From Leisingera aquaemixtae (GTDB taxonomy: Bacteria; Pseudomonadota; Alphaproteobacteria; Rhodobacterales; Rhodobacteraceae), in assembly GCF_001458395.1 (NCBI RefSeq), contig NZ_CYSR01000040.1:62001-126000 (forward strand): a DNA stretch of 64,000 nucleotides. The letters run 5' to 3'. The translations under genes were made by a program, and so were the position numbers. Numbering within the stretch: the first letter of the stretch is position 1; every line of letters starts with the position of its first letter. Shown here piece after piece: positions 36,412 to 46,293 of the stretch. The notes below the pieces were generated by a model, which saw only the letters and a program-made list of their open reading frames with translations, had not been told where the DNA came from and made no database searches.

Positions 36412-36662
36412 CGCTCTCAGGCCTCCCGGATTGAGGCAGGCTGGCAGAACAGCTTGTGCGGGGCTTTGCGCATGGCGTGCTTCTCGGTCCTCGTAACCCG
36501 CGCCCGGGTCAGCGCATCTCTGTTGTGAAGTTTTACCTGCCCGGACGGGATTTACAACTCTGCGGCCGTCCAGGGCCGGCGCCGCCGCAGCGTCGCGGCG
36601 GCGCGCGGCTTGACCGGGGCCGTCCTGCGTGGCCTGTTGGGCGGGGTAAAGGGAGGCTCAGC

Positions 36663-37583
36663 ATGCAGCAGGCGCAGACTATCGATCAGGTCCAGCAGAT
36701 TCTCTCCGGCCAGGGCTATGTCTGCGGCCGGGCGCTGGCCACGGTGGTGTTCCTGTCGCTGAAACTGGGCCGCCCGCTGTTCCTGGAGGGCGAGGCCGGC
36801 ACCGGCAAGACCGAGATCGCCAAGGCGCTGGCCGCGGGCCTGGGCCGCCGCCTGATCCGGCTGCAGTGCTACGAGGGGCTGGACGCCGCCAGCGCCGTCT
36901 ACGAATGGAACTTCGCCGCCCAGATGGTCGCCATCCGCACCGCAGAAGTTTCGGGCGAAGCCGCAGGCGCCGCCGGCCGCGTGGCCCTGCAGAACGAACT
37001 GTTCTCCGCCGATTACCTGATCGAACGCCCGCTGTTGCAGGCGATGCGCCCGGATGAGCGCGGCGCGCCGGTGCTGCTGATCGACGAGCTTGACCGCACG
37101 GATGAGCCGTTTGAGGCCTTCCTGCTGGAGGCGCTCAGCGACTTTCAGGTGACGATCCCGGAACTCGGCACCATCCACGCCCCCGAGCCGCCCATCGTGG
37201 TGCTCACCTCCAACCGCACCCGCGAAGTGCATGACGCGCTGAAACGCCGCTGCCTTTATCACTGGGTCGACTACCCGGATTTCAGCCGCGAGGTGGAAAT
37301 CCTGAACGCCCGCGCCCCGGAGGCCAGCCAGCAGCTCAGCCGCGAAATCGTCGCCTTCGTGCAGGCCCTGCGGACCGAGGATCTGTTCAAGAAGCCGGGG
37401 GTGGCCGAAACCATCGACTGGGCCAATTGCCTGCTGGCGCTCGACGTCATCGCCCTCAGCCCTGAGGTGATCGCCGACACTCTCGGCGCCATCCTCAAGT
37501 ACCAGGACGACATCGCCCGCCTGCAGGGCTCCGAGGCCAAGCGCATTCTGGATCAGGCGCGCGCCAGCCTGGACGCCGCCTGA
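36663..37583 (+). CDS. coxD: MoxR-type AAA ATPase (CoxD-like)
   Basis: A 306-residue MoxR ATPase. Walker A is LEGEAGTGKTEIAKAL (about 40-55), Walker B is PVLLIDELDRTDEPFEAFLLEAL, and sensor I is IVVLTSNRTREVHDALKRRC. It resembles CoxD, the AAA+ chaperone that helps install the [CuSMoO2] centre of CO dehydrogenase, and it is followed by the CoxE-like VWA protein, the standard MoxR-VWA pair. ATG 36663 is preceded by GGGAGG; an earlier in-frame start lies in non-coding-looking sequence. First gene of the rightward cox accessory cluster. Confidence 0.87.
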   Translation: MQQAQTIDQVQQILSGQGYVCGRALATVVFLSLKLGRPLFLEGEAGTGKTEIAKALAAGLGRRLIRLQCYEGLDAASAVYEWNFAAQMVAIRTAEVSGEAAGAAGRVALQNELFSADYLIERPLLQAMRPDERGAPVLLIDELDRTDEPFEAFLLEALSDFQVTIPELGTIHAPEPPIVVLTSNRTREVHDALKRRCLYHWVDYPDFSREVEILNARAPEASQQLSREIVAFVQALRTEDLFKKPGVAETIDWANCLLALDVIALSPEVIADTLGAILKYQDDIARLQGSEAKRILDQARASLDAA

Positions 37584-37587
37584 TGGT

Positions 37588-37648
37588 TCATCTTTCAAAA
37601 AATACTCCGGGGGAGGCCGGAGGCCGGGGGCAGCGCCCCCAGGGGCAC
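37588..37648. repeat. Dispersed intergenic repeat in reverse orientation
   Basis: TTCATCTTTC then AAAAATACTCCGGGGG and the GGGGGCAGCGCCCCC hairpin, i.e. the GGAGTATTTTT element inverted. It fills the coxD-coxE gap. Confidence 0.65.
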
Positions 37649-37650
37649 TG

Positions 37651-38916
37651 ATGCCTGACTATCCGCCGCTATCCCTGCCGGACAACCCCAAGCTGGTCCG
37701 CAACATCACCCATTTCGCCCGCGCCCTGCGCAAGGCCGGGCTGCCGATCGGCCCCGGCCGGGTGCTGGACGCGGTGCAGGCGGTGGCCGCCGCAGGCTTC
37801 ACCAGCCGCGAGGATTTCTACTGGGCCCTGCACGCCTGTTTCGTCACCAAGCCGGAGCAGCGGCTGGTGTTTGCCCAGGTCTTCCGCCTGTTCTGGCGCG
37901 ACCCCAGATACCTTGAGCAGATGATGGCCGCGATGCTGCCCGCGATCCGCGGCGTGCAGGAGGAGCGCACGGCAAAACCCGCCGAAAAACGCGCGGCGGA
38001 GGCGCTGCTGGACGGGATGCTCGATCCGCCCGATGTCCCGGCGGAAGAGCCGGAGGGCACGGAGATCGGCATCGACGCCTCCCGCACCGCCTCCGCTGAG
38101 GAGCGCCTGAAAACCCTCGATTTCGAACAGATGAGCACGGCTGAGATTGCCGCCGCCAAACGCATCTTGGCGCAGCTCGCGCTGCCGGTGACGCCGATCC
38201 AGTCGCGCCGCCTGATGGCCTCGCCCAACGGGCGCCGGGCGGACTGGCGCCGCACCCTGCGCAAGGCCGCGCGCCAGGGCGGCGACCTGCAGGAAATCGC
38301 CCGTGCCAAGCGCCGCATCCGCTGGCCCAACCTGGTGGTGCTCTGCGACATCTCCGGCTCGATGAGCCAGTACAGCCGCATCATCCTGCATTTCCTGCAT
38401 TCCGTCGCCAACGCCAAGGGCGCGGGCTGGGCGCGGGTGCATGGGTTCACCTTCGGCACCCGGCTCACCAATATCACCCGCCACCTGCACCAGCGCGACG
38501 TCGACGCGGCGCTGGCCGCCGCAGGGGCGGAAGCGCAGGACTGGGAGGGCGGCACCCGGATCGGCGACTGCCTGCACGCCTTCAACCGCGACTGGTCGCG
38601 CCGGGTGATGGGGCAGGGCGCGGTGGTCCTGCTGATCACCGACGGGCTGGACCGCGGCGGCCCGGAGGCGCTGGCGCGCGAGATGCAGCGGCTGCAGCTG
38701 TCGTCGCGCCGCCTGATCTGGCTGAACCCCCTGCTGCGCTGGGACGGCTTTGCCCCCAAGGCGCAGGGCATCCGCGCCATGCTGCCCTATGCCGACAGCT
38801 TCCGCGCAGGCCACTCCATCGCCTCGCTGGAGGAGTTGGCGCAGGTGATCTCCAGCCCCTCCGATGCGGGCGAGAAGGCGCGCCTGATGGCGCTGCTGCC
38901 GCCTGCTGGAAAATGA
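37651..38916 (+). CDS. coxE: VWA-domain protein, CoxE-like
   Basis: A 421-residue protein. The N-terminal helical domain (LVRNITHFARALRKAGLPIGPGRVLDAVQAV) and the C-terminal von Willebrand A domain match CoxE, the partner of MoxR/CoxD in CO dehydrogenase maturation. The MIDAS metal site is LVVLCDISGSMSQYSRI (DxSxS; about 229-245), with the threonine in WEGGTRIGDCL and the Asp in LITDGLDRGG. The start codon is ATG 37651. Immediately after its stop is a SqrR-type box for the next genes. Confidence 0.88.
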   Translation: MPDYPPLSLPDNPKLVRNITHFARALRKAGLPIGPGRVLDAVQAVAAAGFTSREDFYWALHACFVTKPEQRLVFAQVFRLFWRDPRYLEQMMAAMLPAIRGVQEERTAKPAEKRAAEALLDGMLDPPDVPAEEPEGTEIGIDASRTASAEERLKTLDFEQMSTAEIAAAKRILAQLALPVTPIQSRRLMASPNGRRADWRRTLRKAARQGGDLQEIARAKRRIRWPNLVVLCDISGSMSQYSRIILHFLHSVANAKGAGWARVHGFTFGTRLTNITRHLHQRDVDAALAAAGAEAQDWEGGTRIGDCLHAFNRDWSRRVMGQGAVVLLITDGLDRGGPEALAREMQRLQLSSRRLIWLNPLLRWDGFAPKAQGIRAMLPYADSFRAGHSIASLEELAQVISSPSDAGEKARLMALLPPAGK

Positions 38917-38932
38917 ATTCCAAAACCGGAAT
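38917..38932. promoter_or_regulatory. SqrR/BigR-type box 1 (ATTC-N8-GAAT)
   Basis: ATTC CAAAACCG GAAT, starting at the base after the coxE stop codon. Matches the ATTC-N8-GAAT consensus reported for persulfide-sensing SqrR, as I recall it. Confidence 0.6.
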
Positions 38933-38937
38933 GTGAC

Positions 38938-38951
38938 TTGATCTGAATCAA
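38938..38951. promoter_or_regulatory. FNR/Anr-type box TTGAT-N4-ATCAA
   Basis: TTGAT CTGA ATCAA is an exact FNR-family consensus, centred at 38944.5. With a -10-like TATATT at 38972..38977 the predicted start near 38984 puts it about -40, a class II activator position. Confidence 0.65.
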
Positions 38952-38974
38952 ACCGTCTCTTATGGCTATGATAT

Positions 38975-38990
38975 ATTCTGAAAGCAGAAT
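38975..38990. promoter_or_regulatory. SqrR/BigR-type box 2 (ATTC-N8-GAAT)
   Basis: ATTC TGAAAGCA GAAT overlapping the likely -10 and start point, 58 bp (centre to centre) from box 1. Placement suits repression. Confidence 0.65.
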
Positions 38991-39012
38991 GTAACGTGCG
39001 AAAGGAGACATC

Positions 39013-39564
39013 ATGCCACTCAACTGGAAAGCCGGGGGGCTCTTGCTGGGGCTGGTGTTCTTCCTGGCGGTGCTGCTGGTCAAACCCATCGGGGTCTCGA
39101 CCCAGTTTGTGATCCTCGACGGCATCCTCGCGGACGCTGTGAACCCGCAGCTGGTGACGCAGACCGCCGACGGGTATACCTCCACCAACGCCTATCTGGC
39201 GAAATCGGACGGCAAATACGCGAAAGCCATCGCTAATCCGCTGAACTACAGCTTTGTCTTCGTGCTGGCGATGGCGCTGGGCGGGCTGCTGTCGGCCAAG
39301 CTGCGCGGCGGCATCACCGGGGCAGAGCGCAGCGTGCACGCCCTGTGGCGCGCCAATTTCGGGGACAGCCCGGCGAAACGCTATGCCGCGGCCTTCCTTG
39401 GCGGCTTCATCGTGCTTTACGGCGCCCGGCTGGCGGGCGGCTGCACCTCCGGCCACATGATGTCGGGCATGATGCAGACCGCGCTGTCGGGCTACATCTT
39501 CGCCGCCGGCGCCTTTGCCGCCGCCATCCCCGTCTCTCTGATGCTGTTCAAGAAGGAGGCCTGA
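39013..39564 (+). CDS. YeeE/YedE-family sulfur transport protein (first half)
   Basis: A 183-residue membrane protein with about four helices. The motif FLGGFIVLYGARLAGGCTSGHMMSGMMQTALSGYIF carries the conserved Cys of the GGCTSG loop used by YeeE/YedE (thiosulfate or sulfane-sulfur) transporters. Such transporters often occur as two half-size genes (PmpA/PmpB-like), as here: the partner starts 3 bp after the stop. AAAGGAGA precedes the ATG. The upstream region has two SqrR-type boxes and an FNR box, linking expression to sulfide/persulfide and low oxygen. Confidence 0.88.
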   Translation: MPLNWKAGGLLLGLVFFLAVLLVKPIGVSTQFVILDGILADAVNPQLVTQTADGYTSTNAYLAKSDGKYAKAIANPLNYSFVFVLAMALGGLLSAKLRGGITGAERSVHALWRANFGDSPAKRYAAAFLGGFIVLYGARLAGGCTSGHMMSGMMQTALSGYIFAAGAFAAAIPVSLMLFKKEA

Positions 39565-39567
39565 GCC

Positions 39568-40158
39568 ATGACAACCATCCTCCTGGCAATCGTGATCGGC
39601 GCCGCCTTCGGCGCGGTGCTGGACCGGATCGGGGCCTCCAACCCCAACTATATCGGCAAGATGCTGAACCTCACCGACCTGAACCTGGCGAAAACCATCC
39701 TGCTGGCGATCGGCACCGGCTCGGTCTTGATGTTCGGCGGCCAGATGGCGGGGCTGGTCGATGTTGGCCATATGTCGGTCAAGGCGGCCTATGCCGGCGT
39801 CTTCATCGGCGGGCTGATGCTGGGCGCGGGCTGGGCGCTGGCGGGCTACTGCCCCGGCACCGGCGTGGTCGCTGCCGCCTCGGGCCGCAAGGACGCGCTG
39901 TTCTTCATCGCGGGCGGCCTGGTGGGCGCGGCGGCCTATATGGTCACCTACCCGGCGTGGAAGGCCAGCGGCCTCTTGAACAGTTTCGCGGGCGGCAAGG
40001 TGACCCTGGGCACAGTGCCGGGCGCCGGATACGACGGCCTGACCGCGCTGCCCGGCGACCTTCTGGGGATCGTCCTGGGCCTTGGCTTCATCGCATTGGC
40101 CTTTGCCCTGCCGGAACGGCTGCTGCCGCAGAAACCTGCCGCGCAGCCTGCGGAATAA
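39568..40158 (+). CDS. YeeE/YedE-family sulfur transport protein (second half)
   Basis: A 196-residue partner of the preceding gene, with about five helices. The conserved Cys motif is LAGYCPGTGVVAAASGRKDALFFIAGG; GGQMAGLVDVGHMSVKAAYAGVFIGGLMLGAGWALAGY is typical of this half. Two-gene YeeE/YedE systems move sulfur species across the inner membrane. Placed within the CO dehydrogenase accessory cluster with its own control region and its own terminator, it looks like an inserted cassette. Confidence 0.88.
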   Translation: MTTILLAIVIGAAFGAVLDRIGASNPNYIGKMLNLTDLNLAKTILLAIGTGSVLMFGGQMAGLVDVGHMSVKAAYAGVFIGGLMLGAGWALAGYCPGTGVVAAASGRKDALFFIAGGLVGAAAYMVTYPAWKASGLLNSFAGGKVTLGTVPGAGYDGLTALPGDLLGIVLGLGFIALAFALPERLLPQKPAAQPAE

Positions 40159-40180
40159 ACTGCGCGCAGGGCAACAGGGG

Positions 40181-40209
40181 AGCGCCCGCCGGGGATGGCG
40201 GGCGCTTTC
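40181..40209 (+). terminator. Terminator of the YeeE/YedE pair
   Basis: AGCGCCCGCC (40181..40190), loop GGGGAT, GGCGGGCGCT (40197..40206), then TTTCC. Short T run, moderate strength. Confidence 0.6.
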
Positions 40210-40315
40210 CGGTCTTTCGCCCGCCTTTTGCGGGCGCTTCGCGCTTGAAACTTCCCCTGCCAGCGCCGAGGTTTAAAGGCAGCCGCCGCCCGGGCGGCCC
40301 GGGGAGAGACGCAAG

Positions 40316-41296
40316 ATGCAGCACACCGCCCAGTTTGAGACCGCGCCGGAGACCGCGCTGGAATGGCACACATCCGGCGCAGGCGCGGCCCTTGCGACCG
40401 TGGTGCAGACCTGGGGCTCCGCCCCGCGCCGCACCGGGGCGCAGCTGGCGGTGTCGGGCGATGGCAGGATCGAAGGCTCCGTCTCCGGCGGCTGCGTCGA
40501 AGGCGCCGTGGTGGTGGAGGCGCAGGAGGCGCTGGCGGACGGCAAGCACCGGCTTTTGGAATTCGGCGTCAGCGACGCGGATGCCTTTGCCGTCGGCCTC
40601 GCCTGCGGCGGCACCATCAAGGTGCTGGTGGAACCCATCGGTGCTGCGCTGCCTGCGGACCTGCTGGAAGACCTGGTGCAGGCCCGCGCCAGCCGCACGC
40701 CCGTGGCCTATGAGGTGAACCTGACCACCGGCGCCCGCCGTCTGGTGCGCGGCGCATACCCCGACCGGATGCGCATGGACCGGTCCGGGCTGGAGGAAGA
40801 CGGCGAGACCTTCGTGGCTGTCCACAACCCGCCGCTGCGGCTGGTGGTGGTGGGCGCGGTCCATATCGCCCAAGCCCTGGTGCCGATGGCGCGGATTGCG
40901 GGCTATGACCCGGTGATCATCGACCCCCGCGCAGCCTTCGCCTCAGCGGAGCGCTTCCCCGGCGAGGCCCTGATGGATGACTGGCCGGACGAGGCGGTCC
41001 AGAAGCTGGGCCTCGACAGCCGCACCGCGCTGGTGCTGCTGACCCACGACCCGAAACTGGACGACCCGGCGCTGCAGGCGGCCCTGGTAGCGGATGTGTT
41101 CTACATCGGCGCGCTGGGCAGCAAGAAAACCCACGCTGCCCGCATCGCCCGGCTGCAGGAGGCAGGCTTCACCGAAGCCCAAATCGCCCGCATCCACGGC
41201 CCCATTGGCCTCGACATCGGCGCGGCGGGTCCGGCGGAAATCGCCGTCTCCATCCTTGCCGAAATGACCGCCGTCCTGCGCGGCAAACAGCCATGA
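40316..41296 (+). CDS. XdhC/CoxI-family molybdenum-cofactor maturation factor
   Basis: A 326-residue XdhC-type protein. The N-terminal XdhC_CoxI domain reads TVVQTWGSAPRRTGAQLAVSGDGRIEGSVSGGCVEGAVV and the second block LLEFGVSDADAFAVGLACGGTIKVLVEP. The C-terminal Rossmann-like domain (from about 180) has LRLVVVGAVHIAQALVPMA and FYIGALGSKKTHAARIARL, also diagnostic. It binds and sulfurates or delivers molybdopterin cofactor to xanthine-oxidase-family enzymes, here the CO dehydrogenase large subunit. A 4-bp overlap couples it to the MoeA-like gene. GGGGAGAG before the ATG. Confidence 0.9.
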   Translation: MQHTAQFETAPETALEWHTSGAGAALATVVQTWGSAPRRTGAQLAVSGDGRIEGSVSGGCVEGAVVVEAQEALADGKHRLLEFGVSDADAFAVGLACGGTIKVLVEPIGAALPADLLEDLVQARASRTPVAYEVNLTTGARRLVRGAYPDRMRMDRSGLEEDGETFVAVHNPPLRLVVVGAVHIAQALVPMARIAGYDPVIIDPRAAFASAERFPGEALMDDWPDEAVQKLGLDSRTALVLLTHDPKLDDPALQAALVADVFYIGALGSKKTHAARIARLQEAGFTEAQIARIHGPIGLDIGAAGPAEIAVSILAEMTAVLRGKQP

Positions 41297-42306
41297 GGTT
41301 CGGCCCGGTTCCCCTGAAGGACGCCGAGGGCGCCATCCTCGCGCACTCGCTGCAGGGCTCCAGCGGCAAGGTGGCCAAGGGCACGGTGCTGACGGCTGAA
41401 GACATCAAGGACCTTGCCGCCGCAGGCCACGAGACACTGACCGTCGCGCGGCTCGACCCCGCCGACATGCATGAGGACGCGGCGGCAGAGACACTGGCAA
41501 AGGCGCTGGTGCCGGACCCGTCCGCGCAGGGCATCCGGATCTCCGGCGCGGGCACCGGGCGGGTGAACCTCTATGCCACGGGCGCGGGCCTGGTGCGGCT
41601 GGACCGCGGCAAGCTTGAAGCCGTCAATGCGGTGGACCCGATGATCACCGTTGCCACCGTGCCGGACTATCACCGGGCCGATGCCGGGGGCATGCTGGCC
41701 ACCATCAAGATCATCTCCTACGGCGTGCGTGCCGATGCCATCCGCCGCGCCAGCAGCGGGGCAGGGGACGCCATCCGGGTGCTGCCGCCGGTCCTGTCCT
41801 CCGCCACGCTGATCGAAACCACGGTGGGCGAGGACACCCCGCCGGACAATTTGCCTGACAAGGGCCGCGCCGCGATGGCAGGCCGGCTGCACCGGATGGG
41901 CCTCAGCCTGTCGGCGCGGGTGGTGGTGCCGCACCGGGAGGACGCGCTGGCCGAGGTGATTACCCGGGCACCGGGGCAGCTGGTGCTGATCCTCACCGGC
42001 TCCGCCACCTCTGACATTCACGACGTTGCTCCCGAAGCGCTGCGCCTCGCAGGCGGCACCATGACCCGCTTCGGAATGCCGGTCGATCCCGGCAACCTGC
42101 TGTTTCTGGGCACCTGCCGGGACAAGCCGGTGATCGGCCTGCCGGGCTGCGCCCGTTCTCCGGCCCTCAACGGTGCCGACTGGGTGCTGGAGCGGGTGAT
42201 CTGCGGCCTGCCTGTCCGCTCTGCCGATATCGCCGCCATGGGCGTCGGCGGGCTGTTGAAGGAAATCCCCACCCGCCCGATGCCGCGCCGCGATGCAGAA
42301 GGCTGA
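41293..42306 (+). CDS. Molybdopterin-binding protein (MoeA/MogA-like domain)
   Basis: A 337-residue protein whose C-terminal half is a molybdopterin-binding fold: LVLILTGSATSDIHDVAPEALRLAGGTMTRFGMPVDPGNLLFLGTCRDKPVIGLPGCARSP, with the MoCF-type G-S/G-x-S-x-D and GMPVxPG motifs. The N-terminal part (MRFGPVPLKDAEGAILAHSL) is found in the MoeA-like proteins of CO dehydrogenase or xanthine dehydrogenase clusters, where the gene is often fused to a MocA-type nucleotidyltransferase; that part is missing here. Coupled by overlap to the XdhC-like gene. Confidence 0.85.
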   Translation: MRFGPVPLKDAEGAILAHSLQGSSGKVAKGTVLTAEDIKDLAAAGHETLTVARLDPADMHEDAAAETLAKALVPDPSAQGIRISGAGTGRVNLYATGAGLVRLDRGKLEAVNAVDPMITVATVPDYHRADAGGMLATIKIISYGVRADAIRRASSGAGDAIRVLPPVLSSATLIETTVGEDTPPDNLPDKGRAAMAGRLHRMGLSLSARVVVPHREDALAEVITRAPGQLVLILTGSATSDIHDVAPEALRLAGGTMTRFGMPVDPGNLLFLGTCRDKPVIGLPGCARSPALNGADWVLERVICGLPVRSADIAAMGVGGLLKEIPTRPMPRRDAEG

Positions 42307-42327
42307 CGCCGCAGCGCAGCGCGGGAT

Positions 42328-42346
42328 TTGTGACGCAGGGTCACAA
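42328..42346. promoter_or_regulatory. Perfect 7-bp dyad upstream of coxS
   Basis: TTGTGAC-GCAGG-GTCACAA (42328..42346), 124 bp before the coxS ATG. CRP/FNR-family-like half sites (TGTGA...TCACA) but with a spacing of 7 rather than 6. Candidate operator of the coxSLM genes. Confidence 0.55.
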
Positions 42347-42469
42347 CCTTGGGTAAGCCCTTCTGACGCGAATTTTACCCCTTGCCCCCCCGTTAAAACA
42401 CTTCGCGGACGGCGCGGCCCGTGCTTAACTCCCGTCAGCCAGACAAAAACAAGCTAAAGGGAGGGTACT

Positions 42470-42955
<486 letters not shown>

Positions 42956-43054
42956 GCAGACGACCCCAGGCCGGACCGCGGCCTGAGCTGACCAAGGAGT
43001 AAGTGACAAAGAGGTGCGCCAGTGGCAGCACCCTCCAGGGAGGAAAGACCAGAC

Positions 43055-45418
43055 ATGCCCAAGGACCAAGGCATCGGCGCCAGCCCCAAGCGGCGCGAGG
43101 ACGTGCGGTTCCTGACAGGAGCCGGAAACTACACCGACGACATCAATGTGAACGGCCAGGCCTATGTGCATTTCCTGCGCGCGGATGTGGCCCATGCGAC
43201 CATCAACTCCATCGATACATCCGCGGCTGAGACGATGCCCGGCGTGGTGAAGGTCTTCACCGGCGCAGATTTCGCCGAGGTGGGCGGCATCCCCTGCGGC
43301 TGGGGCGTCACCGATCGCCACGGCAACCCGCAGCAGGAGCCGCGACACCCGATCATCGCCGACGGCACCATCCGCCACGTGGGCGAGATCGTCGCTGCCG
43401 TGGTCGCCGACACGCTGGAGCAGGCCCGCGATGCGGCGGAAGCCATCGAACTGGACCTGAGCGACAAGCCCGCGGTGGTCAATATGGCCGCCGCACTGGC
43501 AGAGGATGCCGCCAAGGTGCATGAGGACCTGACCTCAAACCTCTGTTATGACTGGGTGTTCGGCAATCCCGATGACGATGCGGTGCAGGCGGCCTTTGAC
43601 TCTGCGGCGCATGTGACGACGCTGGAACTGGTCAACAACCGGCTGGTCGCCAACCCGATGGAGCCGCGCGTGGCGATCGGTGAATACACACGTGGCACGG
43701 ACGAATACACGCTCCACACCACCAGCCAGAACCCGCATGTGATCCGCCTCCTGATGTGCGCCTTTGTGCTGGGCCTGCCAGAACACAAGGTTCGGGTGAT
43801 CGCGCCCGATGTGGGTGGCGGCTTCGGCTCCAAGATATTCCACTATGCCGAGGAAGCCTTCTGCACCTTCGCCGCCAAGGCCTGCGGGCGGGCGGTGAAA
43901 TGGACCTCCACCCGGGCCGAGGCCTTCATCTCCGACGCCCATGGCCGCGACCATGTGACCAAGATCGAGCTGGCGCTGGACGCGGACAACAACTTCACCG
44001 CGCTGCGCACCAACACGATGGCCAACATGGGCGCGTATCTGTCGACTTTCTCCACCTCGGTGCCCAGCTACCTGCACGGCACCCTGATGGCGGGGAACTA
44101 CAAGACGCCGATCGTGCAGGTGAACGTGAAGACCGTGTTCACCAATACGGTGCCGGTCGATGCCTACCGCGGTGCGGGCAGGCCCGAGGCGACCTTCCAA
44201 CTGGAGCGGGTGATTGACAAGGCTGCGCGCGAACTGGGCGCCGACCCGATTGCGCTGCGCCGCCAGAACTTCATCACCGAGTTTCCCTATGAAACCCCGG
44301 TGGCGCTGACCTATGACACCGGCGACTATGTGGCGACCATGGACAAGCTGGAGGAAGTCGCGGACATCGCCGGCTTTGCCGCCCGCCGTGCGGAAAGCGA
44401 GAAGAACGGCAAGCTGCGCGGCTTCGGCGTCAACTGCTATATCGAGGCCTGCGGCATCGCGCCCTCCAACATCGTCGGCATGCTGGGCGCGCGGGCGGGC
44501 CTTTATGACGCCGCCACCGTGCGGGTGAATGCCACCGGAACCATCAGCGTCTTTGTCGGCGCGCATTCGCACGGGCAGGGGCATGAAACCTCCTTCCCGC
44601 AGGTGGTCGCGGATATGATCGGCATTGATGAAAGCATGGTCGATATCGTGCATGGCGACACCGGGCGGGTGCCCTTCGGCATGGGCACCTACGGGTCGCG
44701 CTCCATCGCCGTCTGCGGCTCCGCCATGGTGCGGGCGACCGAGAAGATCATCAGTAAGGCCAAGAAGATCGCAGCCCATCTGATGGAGGCGTCTGACGCC
44801 GATATCGAATTGAAGGACGGCCAGTTCACCGTTGCAGGCACCGACAAATCGGTGGCCTGGGGCGATGTCACCCTGACGGCTTACGTGCCCCACAACTACC
44901 CGCTGGAGGAGCTGGAGCCGGGGCTGGAGGAGACCGCGTTCTATGATCCCGCCAACTTCACCTATCCGTCCGGCGCCTATGCCTGCGAGGTGGAAGTGGA
45001 TCCCGACACCGGCAAGGTCACCATCGAGCGCTTCGCGGCTGCCGATGATTTCGGCAATATCATCAACCCGATGATCGTCGACGGCCAGGTCCATGGCGGG
45101 CTGGGGCAGGGCATCGGCCAGGCGCTCTTGGAAAACGCGGCCTATGACGAAGACGGCCAGCTGTTGTCGGCCTCCTTCATGGATTACGCCATGCCGCGCG
45201 CGGATGACGTGCCGTTCTACCAGGTGGATCATACCTGCCAGACCCCCTGCACCCACAACCCCTTGGGGGTGAAGGGCTGCGGCGAGGCAGGCGCCATCGG
45301 CTCGCCCCCGGCGGTGGTCAACGCGGTGATCGACGCGCTGCAGTCGGGCGGCAAGAGTGTCACCCATATCGACATGCCGCTGTCGCCCGCGCGGGTCTGG
45401 GCGGCGATGAACGGGTAA
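43055..45418 (+). CDS. coxL: Aerobic CO dehydrogenase large (molybdenum) subunit, form II
   Basis: A 787-residue molybdenum hydroxylase subunit. The active-site loop is AYRGAGR at 370-376, the form II signature; form I proteins have AYXCSFR with the Cu-ligating Cys. So true CO oxidation is uncertain and another substrate is possible. The Mo-site glutamate motif GVKGCGEAGAIGSPPAVVNAV is near the C-terminus, and VGGGFGSKI and GAHSHGQGHETSFPQVVAD are further family blocks. ATG 43055 (MPKDQGIGASPKRREDVRFLTG) follows GGGAGGAAAG; an upstream GTG at 43022 is less fitting. Confidence 0.94.
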   Translation: MPKDQGIGASPKRREDVRFLTGAGNYTDDINVNGQAYVHFLRADVAHATINSIDTSAAETMPGVVKVFTGADFAEVGGIPCGWGVTDRHGNPQQEPRHPIIADGTIRHVGEIVAAVVADTLEQARDAAEAIELDLSDKPAVVNMAAALAEDAAKVHEDLTSNLCYDWVFGNPDDDAVQAAFDSAAHVTTLELVNNRLVANPMEPRVAIGEYTRGTDEYTLHTTSQNPHVIRLLMCAFVLGLPEHKVRVIAPDVGGGFGSKIFHYAEEAFCTFAAKACGRAVKWTSTRAEAFISDAHGRDHVTKIELALDADNNFTALRTNTMANMGAYLSTFSTSVPSYLHGTLMAGNYKTPIVQVNVKTVFTNTVPVDAYRGAGRPEATFQLERVIDKAARELGADPIALRRQNFITEFPYETPVALTYDTGDYVATMDKLEEVADIAGFAARRAESEKNGKLRGFGVNCYIEACGIAPSNIVGMLGARAGLYDAATVRVNATGTISVFVGAHSHGQGHETSFPQVVADMIGIDESMVDIVHGDTGRVPFGMGTYGSRSIAVCGSAMVRATEKIISKAKKIAAHLMEASDADIELKDGQFTVAGTDKSVAWGDVTLTAYVPHNYPLEELEPGLEETAFYDPANFTYPSGAYACEVEVDPDTGKVTIERFAAADDFGNIINPMIVDGQVHGGLGQGIGQALLENAAYDEDGQLLSASFMDYAMPRADDVPFYQVDHTCQTPCTHNPLGVKGCGEAGAIGSPPAVVNAVIDALQSGGKSVTHIDMPLSPARVWAAMNG

Positions 45419-45423
45419 GGGCT

Positions 45424-45472
45424 CATGGGGGCGCTGCCCCCATACCCCCGGAGTATTTTCGGAAAGATGAAA
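45424..45472. repeat. Dispersed intergenic repeat between coxL and coxM
   Basis: GGGGGCGCTGCCCCC, then CCCCCGGAGTATTTTC and GGAAAGATGAAA. Lies in the 86-bp coxL-coxM gap, so the repeat is transcribed within the operon. Confidence 0.65.
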
Positions 45473-45504
45473 GCCGGTCAGCCGGTTTTCGGAAAGGATA
45501 CGCG

Positions 45505-46293
45505 ATGTATGAATTCGAATTCGAGAAACCCTCGACCGTCGCTGAGGCCGTGGCCGCGCTGGCGGATGAGGACGCGCAGGCGCTCGGCGGCGGGCAGACG
45601 CTGATCCCGACGCTGAAGCAGCGGCTGGCGATGCCGTCGAAACTGGTCTCCCTCACCGGCATTGCGCAGCTGAAGGAGCTGAGCGACAACGCCGGCATGC
45701 TGACCATCGGCGGCGCGGTCACCCATGCCGAGGCGGCCGAAGCCGCGGCGGGCCCCTACCCGGCGCTGGCGGATCTGGCCAGCCATATCGGCGATCCGGC
45801 GGTCCGCAACCGCGGCACCATCGGCGGCTCGCTGGCCAACAATGACCCGGCCGCCTGTTATCCGGCGGCGGCGCTGGGCAGCGGTGCCACCATCGTCACC
45901 AGCCGGCGCGAGATCACCGCCGATGACTACTTCCGCGGCCTGTTCGAAACCGCGCTGGAAGAGGGCGAGATCATCACCGCGGTGCGCTTTCCGGTGCCGC
46001 AGAAGGCCAATTACCAGAAGTTCGAGCAGCCCGCCTCCCGCTTTGCGCTGGTCGGCGTGTTTGTTGCGAAATACGCCGCCGGCGTGCGGGTGGCCGTTAC
46101 CGGCGCGTCAGAGGAGGGCGTGTTCCGCTGGCGCGAGGCCGAGGCGGCGCTGGATGCCAGTTTCGCGCCTGACGCGCTCGACGGCCTCAGCCTGGATGCC
46201 GGCGGCATGATCGGCGATTTGCACGGCACCAAGGAATACCGCGCCCATCTGGCGGCAGTGGTGACCAGGTGGGCGGTGGCGGCGGCGGCCTGA
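45505..46293 (+). CDS. coxM: Aerobic CO dehydrogenase medium (FAD) subunit
   Basis: A 262-residue FAD-binding subunit of the xanthine-oxidase family. LGGGQTLIPTLKQRLA and TIGGSLANNDPAACYPAAAL are the two FAD-pyrophosphate motifs (the family's AGGxSLIP and TIGGNxAxxDPAxD sites). It passes electrons from the 2Fe-2S centres to quinone or cytochrome b. Third gene of coxS-coxL-coxM, followed by its own terminator. Confidence 0.94.
   Translation: MYEFEFEKPSTVAEAVAALADEDAQALGGGQTLIPTLKQRLAMPSKLVSLTGIAQLKELSDNAGMLTIGGAVTHAEAAEAAAGPYPALADLASHIGDPAVRNRGTIGGSLANNDPAACYPAAALGSGATIVTSRREITADDYFRGLFETALEEGEIITAVRFPVPQKANYQKFEQPASRFALVGVFVAKYAAGVRVAVTGASEEGVFRWREAEAALDASFAPDALDGLSLDAGGMIGDLHGTKEYRAHLAAVVTRWAVAAAA

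Follow-up and report, generated by a model that had tools for sequence, protein, structure and literature searches.

A predicted FNR-type dyad and one or two putative ATTC-N8-GAAT operators are kept in a fixed geometry ahead of the long-form pmpAB genes of Rhodobacteraceae, an arrangement shared by dozens of marine relatives from many genera. The window analyzed here is a stretch of 64,000 nucleotides from Leisingera aquaemixtae, in which these elements precede two half-transporter genes (Table 1). FNR-type activation combined with SqrR-type repression, as first proposed in a preliminary description of this DNA, remains the best reading of these predicted sites. We consider it probable that they make up a promoter with two inputs ahead of a self-contained pmpAB unit, where the repressor would be, rather than SoxR, an orphan paralogue that we name SqrR2.

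Table 1. Features at the pmpAB locus, with positions in the window
Feature	Positions	Strand	Remarks
Distal putative operator ATTCCAAAACCGGAAT (slot D)	38917..38932	+	Exact match; starts directly 3' of the stop codon of the coxE-like gene
FNR-type dyad TTGATCTGAATCAA, presumably for class II activation	38938..38951	+	Exact match
Candidate -10 TATATT	38972..38977	+	Overlaps the proximal operator; presumptive, read by eye
Proximal putative operator ATTCTGAAAGCAGAAT (slot P)	38975..38990	+	Exact match
Shine-Dalgarno-like AAAGGAG	39001..39007	+	Read from the sequence
PmpA-like half-transporter, 183 aa, C-terminal YeeE/YedE half	39013..39564	+	Pfam Sulf_transp, profile positions 176-308
PmpB-like half-transporter, 196 aa, N-terminal half	39568..40158	+	Pfam Sulf_transp, profile positions 10-130; DUF6691
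GC-rich hairpin, possible terminator	40177..40212	+	Weak T tract; approximate limits; between pmpB and xdhC

Motif scans returned the two ATTC-N8-GAAT boxes as the sole exact copies in the window and the FNR box as its single exact copy, confirming the earlier report of two exact boxes flanking an exact TTGAT-N4-ATCAA within less than 75 bp. Together the three elements span 74 bp and end 22 bp 5' of the first codon of the pmpA-like gene. The ATTC-N8-GAAT motif is not by itself enriched in the window, as copies with at most one mismatch number 6 against a shuffle mean of 12.9, which is below expectation. Across the 4.61-Mb genome, exact ATTC-N8-GAAT boxes occur at 24 places compared with 2 for the reversed-pattern control, and exact FNR boxes number 6 compared with 0 for the control. 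The motifs had also been named correctly: ATTC-N8-GAAT is cited as the deduced SqrR site of Rhodobacter capsulatus (PMC9774250), and TTGAT-N4-ATCAA is given as the Fnr site (PMC5398030). A search of PMC9143464 for a site, and of PMC10451225 and PMC5823870 for operator terms, found none.

The preliminary description placed the FNR site near -40 and the second box over the -10 region. This geometry is plausible with the candidate TATATT, which would fit the class II placement of an FNR dyad (centered at about -41.5), but the candidate is not among the matches of a sigma-70 consensus scan, which listed no plus-strand promoter at the control stretch. The single sigma-70-like match between 38600 and 40400 lies on the minus strand at 38968-38995, across the proximal operator, where an antisense start is possible.

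Footprinting covered 81 upstream regions of 150 bp, comprising the window and the best 80 of 414 relatives; at three loci (L058, L069, and L115), the start was moved to the annotated first residue before the upstream regions were read. At least one exact ATTC-N8-GAAT box is present in 62/81 regions and at least two in 24/81, while 73/81 have a box with no more than one mismatch, leaving 19 regions without an exact box and 8 without a box even at one mismatch. FNR sites with at most one mismatch occur in 53/81 regions, 14 of them exact; such a site is missing from 28/81, and in 18/81 none is found in the expected place at up to two mismatches. An exact box and an FNR site (at most one mismatch) are found together in 46/81 regions. 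By comparison, 100 dinucleotide shuffles gave means of 0.53 regions for the exact box, 1.16 for the FNR site, and 0.01 for both (maxima of 2, 5, and 1), and the reversed patterns are found in none of the 81 regions. Upstream of seven neighboring genes (coxD, yeeB, xdhC, moCF, coxS, coxL, and coxM), the exact box is present in 0/311 regions and an FNR site in 1/311. Measured against the shuffles and the 0/311, the counts of 62/81 and 46/81 rule out a chance co-occurrence of boxes and FNR site. A second sample, which overlaps the 80-locus set and consists of the 42 pmpAB-bearing genomes out of 295 searched in the family, contains 25 genomes with an exact box, 29 with an FNR site, and 17 with both. 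The dyad could also have been a plain -35 hexamer, a reading that we ruled out because both FNR half-sites are conserved: across 63 loci, TTGA is present in 63/63 and the facing T, C, and A in 63, 62, and 62, although these loci were chosen by resemblance to the dyad and the count is partly circular.

The geometry of the boxes was read at these 63 loci, which have an FNR-like site in place; the 18 further loci are without one. Exact boxes start in three slots relative to the start of the FNR site, D at -21 to -19 (n = 14), M at +12 or +13 (n = 20), and P at +36 to +40 (n = 37), and three exact boxes fall outside them (at +19, +42, and +56). With up to one mismatch, D is used at 16 loci, M at 29, and P at 48, the P offset then ranging from +36 to +41, which gives 16 DP, 19 MP, 13 P, and 10 M loci and 5 with none. 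Slots D and M are never used in the same locus (0/63), suggestive of mutual exclusivity between these putative operators, although on independent pairs this comparison comprises only four (median p of 0.25) and cannot reach significance. A box in slot M overlaps the FNR site by two bases and changes its final A to T; the last FNR base is T in 28/29 loci with M and A in 31/34 of the others. On the PmpAB tree, the minimum number of changes is at least 5 for D, 11 for M, and 12 for P, and even sister loci differ in type, with L053 being DP and L058 being MP. The two flanking boxes first described are real in the window, but the distal one is a lineage variant, and the second box of many relatives overlaps the FNR site instead.

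The genes downstream had been described as a sulfur-transporter (YeeE/YedE) pair, and both indeed match Pfam Sulf_transp. As in PmpAB/YedE1E2 proteins, the two halves match the C- and N-terminal parts of YeeE and carry one conserved cysteine each, PmpA Cys144 and PmpB Cys95, both invariant in 81/81 loci. Their nearest relatives are those of Leisingera species. Against solved structures, the PmpA profile matched TsuA weakly (E of 9e-4), and PmpB had no match at an E of 1. The PmpA/PmpB arrangement is described in PMC11582611, which gives a half-protein length of about 130 aa; compared with these, the window proteins belong to a longer subfamily. Transporters of the PmpAB type (YedE1E2) take up zero-valent sulfur, speed the formation of glutathione persulfide (GSSH), and require the conserved cysteine, and this import is established for the Cupriavidus and Sinorhizobium pairs (PMC10812762). 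The genome also contains a short second pmpAB pair between a metallo-beta-lactamase (persulfide-dioxygenase-like) gene and a DUF442 gene (L286:5120-7315, G000:C30), and the 12-kb stretch around it has no exact ATTC-N8-GAAT box.

The long pair is preceded by coxD-like and coxE-like genes and followed by xdhC, a MoCF-domain gene, coxS, coxL, and coxM, a molybdenum-hydroxylase cluster that surrounds pmpAB at 36456-46293 of the window. CoxL carries AYRGAGR, presumably the form II signature. Because pmpAB sits between coxE and xdhC on the same strand in most of the 80 relatives, the transporter could serve the molybdenum-hydroxylase (form II cox) genes, for example with cofactor sulfur, and its promoter could also drive xdhC-coxSLM. 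We find this improbable, as seven 16.5-kb loci (L110, L112, L116, L118, L121, L123, and L125) gave no cox hit, yet an exact box is kept in six of them. In addition, a stable hairpin lies between pmpB and xdhC (-52 kcal/mol and z of -3.14 for 40150-40240), although its T tract is weak and it is not listed by a consensus terminator scan. The existence of cox-free loci makes it unlikely that pmpAB is part of the cox system, and since six of them retain the box and the hairpin separates pmpB from xdhC, pmpAB and its putative promoter seem to form a unit of their own.

For class II activation by an FNR protein, both the site and a regulator were found: the TTGAT-N4-ATCAA dyad is exact and conserved, and the genome encodes an FnrL-like protein (L265) with an N-terminal Cys cluster and Crp/FNR domains. 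Another member of the CRP/FNR family, such as a Dnr-type NO sensor or a CRP-like protein, is a possible though somewhat unlikely reader of the dyad. Seven strong Crp-type helix-turn-helix (HTH) matches (E below 1e-9) are found in the genome, and the Dnr proteins of D. shibae recognize the same kind of site (PMC5398030); however, the dyad fits the FnrL consensus (T/C/A)TGA-N6-TCAA (PMC4634722), an FnrL-like protein with the Cys cluster is encoded, and the fnrL-like gene has another exact FNR site (C10:269337) at a distance of about 1.7 kb.

On the side of repression, two SqrR-class proteins are encoded in the genome, SoxR, whose gene belongs to the sox cluster (L033), and the orphan SqrR2 (L039:10098-10424, minus strand), and the Cys pair can be read in both sequences. 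The best PDB match of both is an ArsR-family regulator (13ct/6o8k-6o8o; E of 6e-33 and 4e-35), which we take to be R. capsulatus SqrR, while their scores against NCBIfam BigR, 96 and 99 bits, are below the cut-off of 155. A box over or near the candidate core promoter and an encoded two-cysteine repressor, as expected of SqrR/BigR promoters, are both present, and a homologue (E ≤ 1e-15) is found in 42/42 pmpAB-bearing genomes of the family sample. An ArsR tree of 94 rows, with few columns and a bootstrap that has not settled, places 42 rows in a supported SqrR2 clade and 32 rows in a SoxR group (89/91), with R. capsulatus SqrR (RcSqrR) outside both. The presumed recognition helix reads VSQM in 40/42 rows of the SqrR2 clade and VSQQ in 32/32 SoxR rows and in RcSqrR.

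The line for SqrR2 presence was set at 135 bits across 78 searched genomes, in which the next values are 120 and 118. Its status is known for 78 of the 80 relatives and for the window, 56 with and 23 without, although some genomes are incomplete assemblies and absences may be false; L049 and L063 were left out, and L088, whose best match is 71% identical but covers residues 14-89 only, was scored as being without SqrR2. The protein has further roles besides pmpAB, as it is also found (at 135 bits or more) in at least 36 of 253 family genomes that have no long pmpAB, among which the scores show no gap at 135. We set aside autoregulation of SqrR2, as an exact box lies near the gene in 0/30 orthologues. 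In one genome (G267; L229, L347), the contig that carries pmpAB also has, about 9 kb away, an SqrR-like ArsR gene with 47% identity to SoxR, and the pmpAB upstream region of this genome has no box within one mismatch.

Upstream regions of soxX, taken from the best 30 of the 38 genomes that gave a match out of 42 searched, were used as a control. The ATTC-N8-GAAT core can be tied to sulfur repression in the family, since 26/30 of these regions carry an exact box. ArsR-family dyads look alike, and with 11 HTH_5 matches in the genome, the boxes might instead belong to an ArsR/SmtB metal sensor that is unrelated but has a similar dyad. This seems very improbable given that the same core precedes soxX at those 26 loci and that 4 of the 24 exact boxes in the genome are in the sox cluster beside soxR. 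The soxX operators read AATTCAY-N4-RTGAATT, with A at position 0 in 49/52 half-sites and at position 5 in 49/52 (94%), whereas among exact pmpAB boxes (n = 86), position 0 is C/T in 91%, position 5 is A in 22%, and position 6 is A/G in 78%. Instead of the position-5 A of sox-type SoxR operators, the window half-sites have C, C, T, and T. An FNR site (at most one mismatch) is found in 1/30 soxX regions. The predicted pmpAB operators are thus a different subclass from the soxX boxes with a common ATTC-N8-GAAT core.

Operator type also varies with the presence of SqrR2. With kinship ignored, A is found at position 5 in 18/138 pmpAB half-sites of genomes with SqrR2 versus 17/26 of those without, two or more exact boxes in 23/56 versus 0/23, any exact box in 47/56 versus 13/23 (p of 0.018), and an FNR site in 39/56 versus 13/23. 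In the 42-genome sample, an exact box is present in 18/27 genomes with SqrR2 and 7/15 without. We rejected the idea that the presence of SqrR2 cleanly predicts any exact box, as the association (47/56 versus 13/23) is weak. On independent pairs, the comparison of SqrR2 with operator type cannot reach significance (two pairs; two to four on supported branches, none against the trend), and one exception is L048, in which SqrR2 is present and the distal box is sox-like. A likelihood-ratio score of operator type was set aside as evidence because it was trained partly on the same sequences.

The preliminary description named the repressor SqrR. The class and the operator core agree with this name, but it is ambiguous, as there are two such repressors and the pmpAB boxes differ from those of soxX. 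The operator differences, the single, more sox-like boxes of relatives without SqrR2, and the recognition-helix difference between the paralogues make SqrR2 the likelier repressor of pmpAB. It is unlikely, in our view, that SoxR controls pmpAB as well, with the differing operator flanks merely tuning affinity. Sox-type operators of SoxR do share the core, genomes that lack SqrR2 but keep an exact pmpAB box have SoxR-clade or related proteins (e.g., G231), and the Hyphomicrobium regulators sHdrR and SoxR share DNA fragments as targets of in vitro binding (PMC12423496). However, the pmpAB boxes of genomes with SqrR2 are without the A that 49/52 soxX half-sites have at position 5, and position 0 separates the two sets in the same way. 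Taking SqrR2 as the probable repressor, we tentatively propose, as a serious possibility, that two persulfide-sensor paralogues of roseobacters split one ancestral operator code: SoxR would read AATTCAY-N4-RTGAATT at sox, and the SqrR2 clade, with its Q-to-M recognition helix, would read another ATTC-N8-GAAT subclass at pmpAB. The pmpAB promoter would be an AND gate for oxygen and sulfur, with a second operator that has shifted between upstream and FNR-invading positions.

At the predicted pmpAB promoter, FnrL would occupy the dyad at about -41 under low oxygen and activate transcription from a class II position. A reduced dimer of the SqrR-class repressor would sit on the proximal operator (slot P), covering the -10/start region, and a second dimer would bind either upstream (D, as in the window) or over the downstream end of the FNR site (M), and RNA polymerase, FnrL, or both would be blocked. 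Persulfide or polysulfide would join the two cysteines of the repressor and release it, such that pmpAB expression would require both low oxygen and sulfane sulfur. Because YedE1E2-type import yields glutathione persulfide, zero-valent sulfur imported by PmpAB would add cytoplasmic persulfide and exert positive feedback on the sensor. Like the preliminary description, we infer that pmpAB is induced by sulfane sulfur under low oxygen, with caution on account of two published results: transcription of Hyphomicrobium pmpAB is unresponsive to thiosulfate (PMC11582611), and under anaerobic conditions, the sqr promoter of R. capsulatus is induced by polysulfide and not by sulfide (PMC9995734). In Escherichia coli, the YgaV regulon is reported to overlap seldom with the FNR and ArcAB regulons (PMC9774250).

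Similar elements are found at other loci of the genome. Upstream of hemA (L032:4105-4192, G000:C40), an FNR site with one mismatch is followed 72 bp further on by an exact ATTC-N8-GAAT box; among 30 loci read, the exact box is present in 10/21 genomes of the same genus, this genome among them, and in one further genome from a different genus. Exact boxes also lie just 5' of two genes with a metallo-beta-lactamase fold (L034:4281 and L030:4354). Sulfane-sulfur sensing and oxygen sensing have mostly been studied separately, and a search of one limited literature collection for SqrR together with FnrL found no paper. At pmpAB, both inputs appear to be wired into the promoter of one importer in many marine genera. 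Natural variants in which the second operator is absent, upstream, or overlapping make the promoter logic testable without design, and the split between paralogues and operators poses a concrete specificity question, involving one helix residue and two operator positions, for a widespread family of redox sensors.

Several known systems share parts of this arrangement. The yeeE-yedE-pdo2 operon of Acinetobacter baumannii likewise combines an SqrR/BigR-class persulfide-sensing ArsR repressor with a YeeE/YedE pair (PMC7315123), a combination that is predicted from sequence in the window. However, the A. baumannii pair as described there shares its operon with a persulfide dioxygenase gene, whereas pmpAB of the window stands alone in the cox cluster. 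Also unlike in the A. baumannii BigR system, the predicted regulator of the window is unlinked, the half-transporters are longer, and the putative promoter has a built-in FNR dyad. The operator core and the two-cysteine repressor class are those of R. capsulatus SqrR (PMC9774250), although in the ArsR tree (few columns, bootstrap not settled), RcSqrR groups with neither paralogue, and in the presumed recognition helix, the Q of RcSqrR is replaced by M in SqrR2. The sox promoters that SoxR controls in Alphaproteobacteria (PMC11582611) have the same ATTC-N8-GAAT core, here found upstream of soxX in 26/30 loci, but their operators deviate from those of pmpAB at inner and outer positions, and an FNR site is present in 1/30 soxX upstream regions. 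As in FnrL class II promoters (PMC5398030 and PMC4634722), the spacing between TTGAT-N4-ATCAA and a candidate -10 would be suitable, but the pmpAB dyad is flanked or overlapped by putative sulfur-repressor operators. What is new relative to these systems is the slot architecture, together with evidence pointing to a second repressor of the SqrR class that has an operator subclass to itself.
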